Of a DNA stretch of 64,000 bases, positions 32,001 to 42,252 are shown piece after piece. The position numbers and the translations under genes were made by a program. A model generated the notes under the pieces. That model saw only the letters and a list, made by a program, of their open reading frames with translations. It made no database searches and was not told where the DNA came from. The stretch lies in the NCBI GenBank assembly GCA_010093705.1, contig MU006091.1:186001-250000 (forward strand), in the 5' to 3' direction. Each line of letters starts with the position of its first letter. Position 1 is the stretch's first letter. The DNA is from Patellaria atrata CBS 101060. Taxonomy: Eukaryota; Ascomycota; Dothideomycetes; Patellariales; Patellariaceae.

Positions 32001-32088
32001 TCTGTACACCCCAGTTAACATCCTCATTCGCACTCAGATTATGGTACAATCCTCAATACTTATGCATCCTTATCTTTTCTGCTGAGAT
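29082..32088. other. Longest gene-free stretch, 3 kb
   Basis: No recognisable protein gene on either strand. A perfect 7-bp inverted repeat CGTTCTT-AGA-AAGAACG lies at 31134-31150. Several short frames (30873-31142 plus, 30157-30474 minus) give unfamiliar protein. It may include a long 5' leader of the 32089 gene or a non-coding transcript, but the sequence alone does not show which. Confidence 0.45.
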
Positions 32089-34407
32089 ATGGTTACTTTT
32101 GTCGAGATACTTGACCATTCCCAACACGACGCCAGTGGTTACGACAAGTTGTTTGACGAGGATCCAGGTCAGCATTTCGAGCTCGTCACGGGCTCCAAGA
32201 AGAGGCAAGTCCATCAGCATCTCCGTCAGGGGATCTTGAACCACTATATCCTACGCAGTCGAGACAAGAAGATTCTTGGTGATCTTGGCGGCTCCCCTAG
32301 GGATATCGATCCAGGTGTTAAGCTACTAAACGGGCCAAATCACCCAATCTTTGAGGGTGACCTTGATTTCAGTCTTCTGTGGTCTCTGTACGGCGGTTAT
32401 CAACGTGTTCAATCTAGATTGAGGGATCGTTACAGAGAACTAGCAACTTCAGACTTACTCATCTTCCTGCAAGTGTACGACGACCAAGCCCCGAGATACG
32501 TTCTCGTGAATGACACCGAACTTCTCATTGCTCTAGCAGCTCGAAAGAACCTCATCACGCAAGAATTACGCCGTCGAGGTGAGTATCCAGAAGAGGACGA
32601 CAGCAAAGACTTCGTGGTCACCATGACTCCAGCAGGAAAGACTGACAACAACGTCCTATCCAGTGGAGAGATTGAGGCTGTCGTTGACAGTGCAGTGAAC
32701 TGTGAAACTCCTCAAGTCTTCAGAAAGCCATATCGCGGTCCGGTATTCCTGAAACAACACGAAGCCTCAATGGTAAACTTTACAAACCCTTTTCCATCCC
32801 GAAACGTCACCACTCCTACACCCAACAAGGTACCTAGACGGATACCAGCTTGGGAGCAGGAGGCTCTTAAGAAACAAAAGGAAAATGAACCCACTCAACA
32901 GCAATCGGAACCAAAATTCACTCCAGCTCTTCCACATGGAACTCAACCCACAATGAACGCTTACGTGGAGAATGCTCAAAGGAGCTCCGAAACGTCTGAG
33001 CCAAACGCTGGCAACACGACCTCTCGTTGTGCGGTGCGTCCAGTTTACTTCAATGAACATGCACACCCGATATCATCTCGCGGTCTGACAGCTTGTTGCA
33101 GACCCAACGGTTCTCCCTACGGTCCGAGAATGTCAGAGGATTCAGAGTACTCTAACCCTTGGTCCCGCACTGATACATGTTCATACTGCGCTTCAGATAC
33201 ATGTGCGAGCAGGTTTCCAGTGATCTATGGACAGCATAGTCACCCAATGATTCACAACAGACCCTGTGACGGCCCCTTGCGTGCTGAAGTTGAGCCAATT
33301 ATCCATTCAATTCGCCCTTCGAAACGTCGTCCGGACTTGATTCACACCCTTGAAGAGTACGCTCGAGCACAATCTAAGAGAAGACGCCGGGACGACAGTC
33401 TGTACGATGATATCGACATCTACGATCCTTTCGTTCATGAGCCATCACCATGGACATTGTGGCCTATGGGGCATCCGCTTGCAGCACAAGCCGTGAGCTT
33501 GGGAGAACCAATTTACGCCGCGCATACTGGAATTCCGCACCATAGACAATATCGCCTGGAAGAACCAAATGTCATGCACTGTACGACGCTCGAAGATACC
33601 CTACCAGGACACCTCCACACTCATCCGGCACATACGGTTCGCAGATGTCATGCTGGTCTGGAATGCCCTGGTACACAAATTTCGAACACCTCTGGGAGAA
33701 CGCGTACCCGAAGGTCAAAGCCGTACGCGGGAAGAGTGAATCCACCAAGGTGGTACCAGGATCTCTTCGATATGCCAGACCACAACGTGGGAGCGTACAC
33801 TGGAAACCTCGAAACTGAGGGTGCCGGGTTTCTTCAAGATCACGGGCAGTACGATGCTCCAATTGCAGCCTCCAAGACGTTGCCTCGTATGGGCACAAAG
33901 CAATACGGACTAGAGAGACGCGCCCAGCAGTGGATGACTTCGAACGAAGAAGCTGGGGTTCGGGACTTTGCAAAGGAGCAAAGCAGTACTATGCCCAGGG
34001 ACTCCCGAACCCGCAGTACGCGTTATCGTGAGCTCTTCGGCAAGCTTGTTACCTCGGGGACGTACCGACCAGATCCTAGGTACACAGAGAATCAGGAGAG
34101 ATCACCAACCTACAGTCCCCAGTCTCCCAAGTACGTTCCAAAGTCCCCTGTGTACGTCCCCAAGTCTCCTGAATACACTCCACAGTTACCGCAATACAAG
34201 CCTGAGTCTCCTGGAGCTACGGTGTATGATCCAGTGTGTCCGATGAAGAATAAGGGATGTTCGGCTTGCAAGTCAACTGGAGTCGACCCTGACAACGTTT
34301 CGGCAGACAAGGAAGCTGAAGAGAGTCGAGGAGGTGAAAACCAAGTTTCAAAAGAGGAGGAGATCGGAACGCACGAAGCTCGTGGGTCATACTGGGAATC
34401 TGAGTGA
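32089..34407 (+). CDS. Hypothetical protein, 772 aa, with Pol II CTD-like heptads
   Basis: One uninterrupted exon. Residues 1 to ~170 look folded (LDHSQHDASGYDKLFDEDPG; FEGDLDFSLLWSLYGGYQRV; VYDDQAPRYVLVNDTELLIA, followed by ALAARKNLITQELRRRG). I do not recognise the fold. The middle is disordered, rich in Pro, His, Cys and Arg, with several CxxC-like spots (CSYCASDTCAS; SACKSTG near the end) and a basic SKRRRRDD patch that could be a nuclear signal. At residues 672-709 there are five successive heptads of the Y-x-P-x-x-P-x type. The C terminus is acidic. No signal peptide or TM. A nuclear role is an inference. The start is the first ATG of the open frame. Confidence 0.75.
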   Translation: MVTFVEILDHSQHDASGYDKLFDEDPGQHFELVTGSKKRQVHQHLRQGILNHYILRSRDKKILGDLGGSPRDIDPGVKLLNGPNHPIFEGDLDFSLLWSLYGGYQRVQSRLRDRYRELATSDLLIFLQVYDDQAPRYVLVNDTELLIALAARKNLITQELRRRGEYPEEDDSKDFVVTMTPAGKTDNNVLSSGEIEAVVDSAVNCETPQVFRKPYRGPVFLKQHEASMVNFTNPFPSRNVTTPTPNKVPRRIPAWEQEALKKQKENEPTQQQSEPKFTPALPHGTQPTMNAYVENAQRSSETSEPNAGNTTSRCAVRPVYFNEHAHPISSRGLTACCRPNGSPYGPRMSEDSEYSNPWSRTDTCSYCASDTCASRFPVIYGQHSHPMIHNRPCDGPLRAEVEPIIHSIRPSKRRPDLIHTLEEYARAQSKRRRRDDSLYDDIDIYDPFVHEPSPWTLWPMGHPLAAQAVSLGEPIYAAHTGIPHHRQYRLEEPNVMHCTTLEDTLPGHLHTHPAHTVRRCHAGLECPGTQISNTSGRTRTRRSKPYAGRVNPPRWYQDLFDMPDHNVGAYTGNLETEGAGFLQDHGQYDAPIAASKTLPRMGTKQYGLERRAQQWMTSNEEAGVRDFAKEQSSTMPRDSRTRSTRYRELFGKLVTSGTYRPDPRYTENQERSPTYSPQSPKYVPKSPVYVPKSPEYTPQLPQYKPESPGATVYDPVCPMKNKGCSACKSTGVDPDNVSADKEAEESRGGENQVSKEEEIGTHEARGSYWESE
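34111..34215 (+). repeat. Five tandem 21-nt units coding YxPxSPx heptads
   Basis: Five in-frame 21-nt units, each starting TAC, encode YSPQSPK, YVPKSPV, YVPKSPE, YTPQLPQ and YKPESPG, preceded by SPT. Four of five keep Ser-Pro at positions 5-6. The DNA units have diverged at many third positions while the protein pattern stays, so the pattern appears to be selected rather than a fresh slippage product. Confidence 0.85.
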
Positions 34408-35083
34408 ATGAACAGAAGACGGTGGAAGGAGCTATTCGGCCGGAAGAGCCGAACCAACGCCGCGTGTTCATTGGCGAAAAAATGGTGTTCAGGTGGCCGC
34501 CCTATATTTGGTATTTTTTTTTTTTTTTGAAATGCGCATTTCTGAGCATTGCTCGTCTTGAGATTGAGAGGATACATCGCTTTTTCTTTTTAACATCGTT
34601 CATCTGCATCGCAGGGGGTTATCATCATGGGGATCCCATGGACTCTGTCATGGAGTGGGTAAATGGAAATTTTGTCCAGAACCCATCGTTTCGTGGCATC
34701 TACCGTTCTTCTTTTCGTATCTCTCACCTGTATCACTGGAGAACATGGTGATCGGGACTCACTAGGTTCAAGCATGAATTGGGCGAATGAAACTTCTATT
34801 CAGAGCCCATTACTTCATGTTCAAACGTGGTTTTCTATTTAGATAGCTAGACATCCAACAATGGCAATATTGATAGCTAAGAAAGCCTGCCATCTTGGAG
34901 TCGTGACCAAACCGTTTCAGAGAGTCCAAATTATGTTGAACGCTCCAGCGATGCGCGAAGCGATTCGCAGTGGCAATAATTGCTCAAGTGTATGCGCCAT
35001 GAGAGTTTATGCATACCATTACGTCTGTAGCATGGGTCTTCATTGTCTTCGTTAAGCCGTCCCGTCATTCATCATTAACCCAT
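34408..35083. other. Intergenic between convergent genes, 676 nt
   Basis: 3' flanks of the 772-residue gene and UBC7. A T14 run occurs at ~34515. Nothing else. Confidence 0.5.
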
Positions 35084-35648
35084 CTACAACCCCAGACCCT
35101 TCCTCACGTTCTCTCTCACGATCTTCTCATACTCCGATCTCCTCTCTCGCCACATCCTCGCCGCATCCACATTCGCGGGACTTTCGTCATTCGGCTCGGC
35201 CAGCATGCTCATGACGCTGATCAAGATCTTCTCAACCGACTGTATCGGGGACCATCTCTCGCTCGCGTGCTCGTAATGATTCGGATCATCGCCAGGCGGA
35301 TGCAGGATACTGATACACACGTCACCGCTCGGATAGACTGGACTCGCACATCACGTCAGCGTCAGACTTCAGGTGTACGCGGATGGGGTTACGCTCACCG
35401 TTCGGATGCCAGATGTCGCAAGTGAACTTCATCTTCGGCGGCGCGAGCGGGTAGTCTTTCGGGAACTTGAGCTCGGCGGGGAAGAGGCCGCCTTCGAATG
35501 GCGTGCCTTCAGGGCCTTGGATCAGCGCTTCCCAGAGGAAGAGGTCGTCTTCGTTGACGGGGCCCGCGGTGATGCCTTCGGGCGGGTCGTTGGTGAGGGT
35601 GCGGTATTCGTGGAAGAGGCGCTTGGATGCGACGGCCGAGGAGGACAT
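35084..35648 (-). CDS. ubc7: E2 ubiquitin-conjugating enzyme Ubc7 (UBE2G2 class)
   Basis: Exons 35648-35399 and 35337-35084 over a 61-nt intron (GTGAGC...CCAG), 167 residues. The E2 fold is plain: [55 protein letters not shown], then [12 protein letters not shown] with catalytic Cys91. Directly after the cysteine comes the acidic loop [19 protein letters not shown], the insertion that marks the Ubc7/UBE2G2 and Cdc34 group; the short length without a tail points to Ubc7. It ends NVRKGLGL. Ubc7 works with Cue1 and the Hrd1 or Doa10 ligases in ER-associated degradation. The intron splits the HPN-VYP junction exactly as the protein requires. Confidence 0.95.
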
Positions 35649-35992: not shown

Positions 35993-38092
35993 TCAAAACC
36001 AATCCGAAAAGGCATCACTAACATTACCTCCTCCACCCCCTAAGCTGCTGTCCCCAGGGTCACCGTCTCCCCGACCTCCTGAACTATTTCCGGAACCCCT
36101 ATCGGCCCAGGGACTCTGTGCGTTTTCACCCCAGACGTCTTCACCTTGCGGAGCTTCCGGTGTATTTTGCGCTTGTTGCCCTTCGGGGTAGTCCCAGGTC
36201 TGGTGTGATGCATCATCCTGAGACGATCTTCTAGACCCGTATGCTCCTCTTTGCATAGCTTCATACGCCGCCGCTGTACCCGCACCTGCTATCGCACCTT
36301 CCCCCATCCCTCCTATTCCTTTAGCTGCACCCCCAACCACACCTGTACCCGATTCTGTAGCTGCTCCCGTTCCAACAGCTGTCCCAGCTTCAGCGCCAGC
36401 TGCACCAGCTTCACCAGCAGCGCCACCATAGCCCGGAAACCACATTGGAAGCCATCCACCAGTGCCGGCATGACTGTGCCGACTGAAATAGTCAAAGTCG
36501 ATGCTTACCGCCGTGGCAAGCATAACTGCTCTCTGATCCAATGTCATGCCCGGTACTGACTGAGTGCTATCGGCGGAGCGTTTACCGGTTTTAGATATCA
36601 GATATTGAGACTCTGCCTCTAAACTTGCAGCATCCATTCGCAATGCATACGCCCCGGTATCCGTGAAGATTTCCCTGGCAAAGCTTCTAAAGTTGCGGTT
36701 CACGGAGCCGATAAGTCGATCGTCTGATGAGAGAAGCGCGAAATCCCATGACAAAAGGGGTTCATTGACGTGTGCGAATTGTGCGAATCCCACCTCGCTC
36801 CTATTATCCTTGGAGACTTGAGCTGCCTTAGTGTCTGATATGGGGAGCTCTCCAGACGTCGGTTGACGCACTTCTTGCGCTTGCTTGTCTTCAAGCGGAC
36901 GGTTGAGGAAAAGGTCATATTTTCGCCTCCAGGGGTGCCATTGTTGGTGCGCTTCCCCAATGATTCGCATTTCAGACATGCCAAGAGTAGGAATCCGACG
37001 GGCTTCAGGGATTGTAGATTGAAGAGCCGTTTGCGATGACGGATTAATACCGCTGTTGGGGTTTACGGTATCGTAGATGCGTATCCTGGAATTTATCCAG
37101 CTGAAGGGACGGTGAAACTGGAAACGTATCAGCTAACTGCTTGATTTCAACCTCAAATACCTCTTCTGTCGCTGTAACACCCCTAAGTTACTGTGCAGTC
37201 ACTGCTGGAAGGTTTTTGACTTCCACAGATTCAAACTACCGCACCATGGAGAATCACTGTACCGTACAGATGACCGAACCATACAAACCGACTTGACGAT
37301 ACGGATTGACTGGGTTGTACGGAGAGGCAGGTCGCTCAAAATGGCGGAATCATGCAGAGTAATCATACCGTACGGATCTACTAGTCTCTACAAGATGACT
37401 TTTTAAGGTGATTACACGCACATTATGTAGAGCCGAAAGAGCCGAAAGAGAGCTCTCGTTACCCGAGTAGTACAGGTCTCCATAGTTACAGCAACTGTAC
37501 AACAAGGGGGGGGGGGGTTGTGATACGTAACCGAGAGAGAGACGAATCAGTCATTTGATGGACCTACCCGTAAGACCTCTATCTCATTCTTATCAAACAC
37601 ATGCGTCGTGAAACTCCTATGGGTACGAAACATCTGCCTGGCCAACATGTTTCCAACTCCATGCTCTTGCTCGGCTAAGAATCCAACATGGTTTCCCTGC
37701 GCATCCATGATGATATATTTGTTTGCTTGTTCAAAGCTAAGGAGGACGTTCATAAGCTCAATTTCGCGCTGTACTACGATTGAAGAGTTCGCAAGTATAG
37801 AAGTGACGGGATGGTTTCCTTTCAAGATCCCATGCGGATCTTCCGGTATGTGAACTAGGGAGAGTAAATGACTCTCATCCTGTGTGGTAGCTTGTTTCAG
37901 CGCCTTTGAAGTGATGGCCGTTTGAGAGGCATCCAGTTCCTGATTGACCCGAGCCCGATGATTAGGTCGTGGTAATGGGCGAGATGGACCAGGTTTTCGT
38001 AGGGTGTTCCGAGGACCGGGAGAGCGACCAGTAGAGATGCTACGAGTCGCCTGTCTGAATATTGTCGCTCTCCATGCTGACGAAGCGAGCAT
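35993..38092 (-). CDS. aim25: Mitochondrial scramblase-family protein (AIM25-like)
   Basis: Exon 1 (38092-37568, 175 residues) and exon 2 (37117-35993, 374 residues) join in phase 0 across an unusually long 450-nt intron. Exon 1 starts with a mitochondrial targeting stretch (MLASSAWRATIFRQATRSIS) and enters the scramblase fold: SILANSSIVVQREIELMNVL, KYIIMDAQGNHVGFLAEQEH. Exon 2 continues FHRPFSWINSRIRIYD, RKYDLFLNR, LLSWDFALLSSDDRLIGSVN and DTGAYALRMD, then LDQRAVMLATAVSIDFDYFS. A Gly/Ala-rich tail (~470-549) is probably disordered. Yeast Aim25 belongs to this PF03803 family; actual lipid scrambling by fungal members is not proven. The spliced protein reads through all the expected scramblase strands, which supports the intron. 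Confidence 0.9.
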
Positions 38093-41104: not shown

Positions 41105-42252
41105 ATGCATCGTCCAGCAATTCTAGCAGCAACCCTTTTCGCCGCTGTGGCCGTGGCCCAGCAACCGGCGTATGCGCAATGCGGAGGAAACAACCATCAG
41201 GGAGACACGACGTGTGTTTCAGGTTACCACTGTGAAATGGTCAATGAGTGGTATTCCCAGTGCATGCCTGGAGACCCTCCAGTTGAGGAACCTACGCCCG
41301 AGCCTGAACCTCAACCCACTCCTGAGCCCACGCCCGAGCCGACGACGTTAGTAACCAGCATACCGGTTGAGACTCCTACTGAAACTTCAGTCATCACAAG
41401 TCCATCCCCTTCTCCAATCAACAAATGCCCGGTTGTCCTGGATGGACGTATACCAGTAGGCACAGCGGCTACGGTCCTCGATACCAACAACAAGTATTTC
41501 AACCCGGACTATGTTAAGGGTAACAACCTGAAGTGGAGCGATATTATCAAGCTTCCCTCAGTCCCACAATCGAGGTTCGATGCTGCTGTTGGAGCCCAGG
41601 CCCTCGAGGTCACCATTAGCGATAAGAGCATTTTCATGCAGCAGAACGGGTTCAGACGCGCGGGACTGCAATTCAACGGGGATTCATCCGATGACGCAAG
41701 CTCCAAAGGTGTCAAGACTATCCACTTCAGTGTAAGAGTTGATGCCACGAGGGCATTGAACCTAACTCATGAGTATCTAGTAAGTTATGCTAATGGAGTG
41801 GAACAAAATACTTGATATTAAGCGAAACATAGAATGTGTGGCACGAGACGGCCGATTACTCAGCCAATCAGTTCAACTTCCAAACTGGAACTATCATTGG
41901 AAAGAGTAGCTCCGACAGGAACAACTGGAAGGTCCTAAACAGGAACAACCAGCTCGTATGGTCAACTCCGATGGTCGCGGATACATGGCAAAACTTCGCT
42001 ATCACTCTTGACTTCAGCAAGAATACCTTCCAAGTGTATTATTCCGCCGGCAACGATCCTCTGAAGTCCGTGACCAGTTCTTTATCCAACAACCTTGCTG
42101 GTAACGGACAGTACCAGATTGGTGTGCTCAAGAAACCAACCGGTACCTCTGATGTCGTCAACAGTGGATACCAACAAAGGAATCTTAACGAAGGCGTCAT
42201 CTATGGTGGGTTATTCGTGGAAGATAGTGCGGGTGGCTGCGTGAGTCTGTAA
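41105..42252 (+). CDS. GH131 beta-glucanase with N-terminal CBM1
   Basis: Exons 41105-41779 and 41833-42252 over a 53-nt intron give 364 residues. A signal peptide (cleavage after AVAVA, ~18) is followed at once by a CBM1 cellulose-binding module (~22-54: YAQCGGNNHQGDTTC, then NEWYSQCMPG with the usual four Cys and aromatic face). A Pro/Glu/Thr linker reaches ~106. The GH131 domain follows: CPVVLDGRIP, DIIKLPSVPQSRFD, SDKSIFMQQNGFRRAGLQFN, TWQNFAITLDFSKNTFQVYY, and it ends GVIYGGLFVEDSAGGCVSL. GH131 enzymes cut beta-1,3, beta-1,6 and some beta-1,4 glucans outside the cell. Plant or fungal wall glucan is the likely substrate. N-terminal placement of CBM1 is notable. Confidence 0.9.

Follow-up and report, generated by a model that had tools for sequence, protein, structure and literature searches.

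How should a run of heptads resembling the tail (CTD) of Rpb1, the largest subunit of RNA polymerase II, be understood when it stands near the end of a protein that has no polymerase domain? The question is raised by a 772-codon open reading frame (ORF) on the plus strand, at 32089-34407 of the 64-kb stretch of DNA analysed here (the window), which encodes an orphan, polar protein. The original prediction placed heptads in the register of the Rpb1 tail at residues 672-709 (34102-34215), and both place and register hold. Position 34102 is the S of an SPT triplet (residues 672-674; 34102-34110, plus strand), which is why the predicted coordinates are right; the triplet is a partial unit in register, corresponding to the S5-P6-x7 half, and five full tandem units with Tyr1, Pro3 and Pro6 in each follow it in residues 675-709 (34111-34215, plus strand). 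The resemblance of this array to the RNA polymerase II tail is real. As a working element, the CTD-like array is suggestive and unproven.

The five units read YSPQSPK YVPKSPV YVPKSPE YTPQLPQ YKPESPG, a pattern of the form Y-x-P-x-[S/L]-P-x. Tyr1, Pro3 and Pro6 are kept in 5/5 units and Ser5 in 4/5 (S, S, S, L, S), unit 4 having lost it. Position 2 runs S, V, V, T, K, with the consensus Ser in 1/5; position 4 (Q, K, K, Q, E) holds Thr in 0/5 and position 7 (K, V, E, Q, G) Ser in 0/5. A sixth YxPxxP, YDPVCPM, occurs at residue 713, shifted by three residues from the register. The module S-P-x-Y-x-P, with pS at its head if phosphorylated, is found at 4/5 Tyr positions (residues 672-677, 679-684, 686-691 and 693-698). 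Of the 'CTD code', the array retains the Ser5-Pro6 part alone. Such a run is not expected from composition: when the whole protein was shuffled 5,000 times, tandem YxPxxPx runs reached at most two units (in 3 shuffles), against the five observed, and two was again the maximum when the local 80 residues were shuffled 200,000 times (in 127 shuffles). A six-frame scan of the window shows the array as the sole run of at least two YxPxxPx heptads.

A search of the PDB with the protein gave 16 distinct sequences at E<=1, with a best whole-sequence E of 5.9e-15 and residues 671-735 as the best-matching stretch. All 16 look like Rpb1 or Rpb1-tail peptides, two of them being named just RNA polymerase subunit and judged to be Rpb1 by their length and the place of the match. 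The low E-values come from adding up numerous matches of repeat to repeat, with a strong composition bias; taken singly, no stretch in the alignments shown does better than an E of about 0.04-0.06, and for this reason the shuffles are firmer evidence than the PDB match. The CTD family PF05001 was not reported for the 772-residue protein by hmmscan at E<=1, and the curated cut-off was not reached. This is a weak negative, because HMMER filters can drop a 14-position model.

The best-supported reading, held tentatively and with somewhat less than even confidence, is that of a convergent, short CTD-like array that would serve as a docking strip of the Ser5-Pro6 type. Tandem duplication of a single 21-bp unit would have given the array in a proline-rich C-terminal stretch, and proline-directed kinases would phosphorylate the SP sites of the tail. 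Binders of Ser5P-Pro6, such as an Ess1/Pin1-type WW-isomerase or a Ser5P-specific reader or phosphatase, would then bind the repeated pS-P-x-Y-x-P, so that in the nucleus the protein could associate with the Pol II tail, or compete with it, in a weak and multivalent manner. The run of five that no shuffle reached and the Rpb1-like character of 16/16 PDB matches would speak for such a role. Against it stand the inflation of the PDB E-values by repeat sums and the missing PF05001 report, together with the loss of Thr4 and of most Ser2, the Lys, Gln or Glu at position 4, the unit without Ser5 and the contrast with the organism's own Rpb1, which has YSPTSPx.

The docking-strip reading is nearly level with a plainer one, according to which the tail is a proline-rich, extended spacer without any role for CTD readers. 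The array would then have come from 21-bp slippage in a tail that is disordered, and it would be tolerated since a Y-x-P-x-x-P chain stays stiff and extended; the CTD look would be a by-product. A period of 21 is indeed present at the DNA level, as Tandem Repeats Finder reports a 21-bp tandem repeat of 3.0 copies with 71% matches under units 1-3 (34115-34176, plus strand). Residues 661-720 contain 25% Pro and have low hydropathy, and solely from these two features the tail is presumed to be disordered. The spacer is further in line with the poor retention of S2 and T4, the absence of Ser5 from unit 4, the modest codon bias of the ORF and the lack of any relative in the collections searched (Pfam, the own genome, viral and bacterial/archaeal). 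A spacer has, however, no need for Tyr at every seventh position or for SP at positions 5-6 in 4/5 units, and the codons of the units also argue against it. The five 21-bp units have a mean pairwise identity of 13.4 of 21 nt. At the Y1, P3, S5 and P6 columns 18/22 pairwise codon differences are synonymous, a count made among units inside the array and distinct from a between-species dN/dS; the 4/22 nonsynonymous differences can all be traced to unit 4, with its TTA (Leu). The prediction that the unit DNA has diverged while the protein pattern is kept was thus broadly right. In 200,000 star-like neutral simulations, which started from a hand-made unit near the consensus and reached a mean of 13.9 of 21 (first 2,000 runs), Y1, P3 and P6 were kept in all five copies in about 0.1%. 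This test is biased, because the array drew notice by its kept pattern and the analyst picked the starting unit. With that bias, the codon differences and the simulation would favour constraint on the protein pattern, and the synonymous excess and the 0.1% may be counted in favour of the docking strip. The units themselves were probably derived by tandem duplication of one 21-bp unit.

A docking strip could also serve SH3 or WW domains or MAPK/CDK signalling, with no relation to transcription, a reading that we consider rather unlikely. The protein has 15 SP/TP sites, seven of which are inside the 38-residue tail (672-709), and SP sites fit any proline-directed kinase. PxxP is present in 5/5 units by eye. 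Class I ligands of SH3 domains have the form [RK]xxPxxP, which is matched by the single KxxPxxP of the array, KYVPKSP. The basic residue of such a ligand is found in 1/5 units only, though, and the regular Tyr would have no role. For the Ser5-Pro6 docking strip, the share of 7/15 SP/TP sites in the tail and the patch resembling a nuclear localization signal (NLS), described below, are points that would count in favour.

It is very improbable that the ORF is not a real gene, or that the tail is not translated as read because it is spliced out or an antisense frame is the real one. The ORF starts with ATG, stops with TGA and runs uninterrupted for 772 codons. With a codon table derived from the Rpb1 frame plus six frames of the window that match Pfam families, it scores +0.061 bits per codon; the other five frames score -0.05 to -0.12 and contain 20-42 stops each across 32089-34407. 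Among the full-length 96-codon blocks the highest score is that of the heptad block, residues 673-768 (+0.139). Doubt is fed by an overlapping antisense ORF at 34110-34577, but its score is -0.038. The codon bias is modest: scores fall slightly below zero in residues 289-384 and 481-576, and an antisense frame with 3 stops does as well as the ORF in residues 1-96. There are splice-like signals within the ORF as well: position 32579 has a 5' GTGAGT, and a weaker site lies shortly after the heptads, at 34234. The heptads lie outside the candidate introns, and splicing could alter the frame or other parts of the protein.

Outside the heptads the protein offers few landmarks. A Pfam search of the 772 residues gave no family at E<=1, in agreement with the prediction that a polymerase domain is absent; membership in Rpb1 was rejected, there being no polymerase domains upstream of the heptads. 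The N-terminal region, residues 1-180 (32089-32628, plus strand), has little Pro (2-7% in each 60 residues), and its hydrophilicity is below that of the tail. It is perhaps a folded part; no PDB match was found for these residues at E<=10, and the AlphaFold2 single-sequence model of residues 1-179 (mean pLDDT 34.5) is useless for the fold. A hit to HTH_TbsP_C in residues 104-165 (E 0.031) was discarded as noise, with 14.8 bits against a cut-off of 27.1. The predicted basic patch of nuclear type is there, as KRR at residue 412 and KRRRR at residue 430 (residues 412-434; 33322-33390, plus strand), and by general knowledge of such motifs it is a possible NLS. The CxxC pairs, predicted to be scattered, amount to two (residues 364 and 724), from which, isolated as they are, no zinc site can be deduced. 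Past the heptads, the C-terminal end (34216-34404, plus strand) holds YDPVCP, CSAC and an acidic stretch, residues 721-772 having a net charge of -7.

Relatives were sought in the own genome (28,285,586 bases, 46 contigs), where the protein matched itself and, in part, one other place (C11:543133-543237; 74% identity, residues 1-35). At the DNA level this is a block of 151 bp that is 87% identical and extends from 63 bp before the ATG to codon 29 (window 32026-32176; G000:C11:543070-543220, that is, L015, 5071-5221). In the first 35 codons of the C11 copy, 9 codons differ nonsynonymously and 5 synonymously, and its frame ends after 48 residues, for which reasons it looks like an unconstrained fragment. 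The block looks like a small dispersed duplication of the start region, and a whole-gene paralogue was rejected. In the viral collection, residues 1-180 gave 3 pattern stretches and the 87-residue tail region 14, and in the bacterial/archaeal collection the whole protein gave 19, with 0 confirmed in each case; given the nature of these collections, absence from them is silent on fungal orthologues. Other genes in the window include a ubiquitin-conjugating enzyme frame (35322-35645) beside two minus-strand frames (35993-38092), each with part of a scramblase domain and probably belonging to one intron-bearing gene. A fungal enzyme active on cellulose is encoded at 41105-41815, with a CBM1 N-terminal to its GH131 catalytic domain.

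The organism's own CTD is readily found. PF05001 has 10 matches in the genome, all in one 1,649-residue Rpb1 frame on C7 and 0/10 at the heptad locus. This frame (L014; G000:C7:990500-999500) ends with YSPT directly followed by a stop, and a last small exon may exist. Of its 16 YxPxSPx units, 14 have S at position 2 and 15 have T at position 4 (the remaining one has S there), and position 7 varies without ever being K or E, so that nearly all heptads are YSPTSPx. The Lys/Glu variants of the array had been likened to those of divergent CTDs. At some positions this fits human Rpb1, stretches of which in the PDB alignment have, in places, K and E at position 7 and Q at position 4, and such variants are therefore not foreign to CTDs; the comparison fails for the own Rpb1. 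The 38-residue tail, searched against the genome, found itself, four stretches of Rpb1 (E 0.012 to 0.35) and a repeat on C33. That four of its five matches beyond itself fall in Rpb1, the fifth being an unrelated Thr-Pro repeat, would again speak for a CTD-like docking strip. The C33 match (32% identity, E 0.39) was rejected as a different, Thr-Pro-rich repeat, judged by eye from the DNA. The locus (L021; G000:C33, 25455-25565) has a 486-residue frame with an imperfect repeat of this kind, unrelated by eye to the heptads. The array does not appear to be a recent copy of the own Rpb1. Capture of a fragment of the own Rpb1 CTD exon by gene fusion or exon shuffling would suit the protein-level similarity to Rpb1 tails but is scarcely credible and already disfavoured, as a nucleotide search of the genome with 33900-34400, in which simple repeats are skipped, finds this locus alone, the tail is only 47-63% identical to the own Rpb1 (E 0.01-0.35) and none of the 16 units has K, E or Q at position 4.

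If the tail is a Ser5-Pro6 docking strip, candidate readers are at hand. It is general knowledge that CTD readers differ in their needs for Ser2P and Ser5P, and Pcf11 is a Ser2P reader. Readers that depend on Ser2 or Thr4 would find almost nothing in this tail, and those that depend on Ser5-Pro6 would find their sites; the array would suit Ser5-type kinases, Ser5-type readers or Ess1. The genome has an Ess1-like frame, with a rotamase by family search and a WW-type stretch before it by eye. A family search for the CTD-interaction domain (CID) gave 4 matches at 3 places. One is Pcf11, which would be poorly served by the tail with Ser2 kept in 1/5 units, and another is a CID protein with an SR-rich tail, whose sole PDB match is the RS-rich part of a splicing factor. 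The third, on C25, accounts for two matches and could, we assume, be Rtt103; a 299-residue frame downstream gave no Pfam match. A CID of the Nrd1/Seb1 type was not clearly recognised among the 4 matches at 3 places, and it could be missed because the family search works exon by exon. CTD readers such as Ess1, Pcf11 and CID proteins are widespread in fungi, and their presence in this genome therefore shows that the docking reading is testable, not that it is correct.

Either outcome would be of use. Recognition of the tail by CTD factors would mean that Rpb1 is not the sole place where a functional array of this type can evolve, with tandem duplication as the probable route, and the units would be a small natural peptide set separating the Ser5-Pro6 part of the code from Ser2 and Thr4. 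A mere spacer would caution that 21-bp slippage can produce Y-x-P-x-S-P arrays and that such an array alone is no proof of coupling to transcription.

CTD mimics in non-polymerase proteins are already known from Trf4, Mpp6 and Sen1 and from PIE-1, and the yeast cases are a precedent for the docking strip. A literature search on CTD mimics gave, among the matches listed, no fungal heptad array outside Rpb1 besides the yeast motifs, and one on array-type hexapeptides gave no match. The CID of Nrd1 binds Nrd1-interacting motifs (NIMs) in yeast Trf4 and Sen1, and Mpp6 is reported as another example; recognition involves negative residues, then Tyr, then a turn or extended segment, and it is expected that CTD-mimic motifs may be found in other proteins (PMC4186968, PMC7110113). 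Compared with the NIMs, the array is alike in being a CTD-like segment in a presumably disordered region of a non-polymerase protein. NIMs have a conserved Tyr after negative charge, for which the array would have SPE-YTP, with pSer and Glu ahead of the Tyr. The difference is that NIMs are short and have acidic residues in place of phosphate, whereas the present array is tandem, has Lys and Gln and would need phosphoserine. An acidic residue stands immediately before just one of the five Tyr (residue 696), and there is no acidic run. As far as the residues can tell, the array is not a NIM as defined, and the predicted working as a CTD mimic or scaffold is a candidate role.

PIE-1 of C. elegans is a CCCH zinc-finger protein with a single heptad, YAPMAPT, that lacks serines. 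A title by Zhang from 2003, listed in PMC2748068 and PMC10395837, speaks of 'CTD analogs'. In both proteins a CTD-like heptad occurs in a non-polymerase nuclear protein, nuclear in the present case by the putative NLS patch. The two differ in that PIE-1 has one heptad without serines in a zinc-finger protein and the array is tandem; the Pfam search at E<=1 gave no zinc-finger family in the 772 residues. A proposed role of the PIE-1 motif is to bind and sequester cyclin T (PMC10395837).

Polar and halophilic fungi have Rpb1 CTDs that are highly divergent at positions 1, 4 and 7 with Ser-Pro motifs kept (PMC9451162). The array shares with these CTDs the divergence with Ser-Pro kept and differs in that those are genuine Rpb1 tails; the own Rpb1 tail, unlike them, is near the consensus at positions 2 and 4. 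With the Rpb1 CTD (PF05001) in general, the array has in common tandem in-register heptads near the C-terminus with Tyr1, Pro3, Ser5 and Pro6. It differs in having five units against the 16 YxPxSP units of the own Rpb1, in the loss of most Ser2 and all Thr4, in Lys, Gln or Glu at position 4 and in the absence of polymerase domains. A bolder extension of the docking reading, which we regard as unlikely, would be a lineage-restricted fungal nuclear protein with an independently evolved tandem 'mini-CTD' of the Ser5-only kind, a decoy that would compete with the Pol II tail or bridge to it through Ser5P-Pro6 readers and kinases. If so, such a multi-repeat CTD decoy would be unlike the single-motif mimics of yeast and worm.
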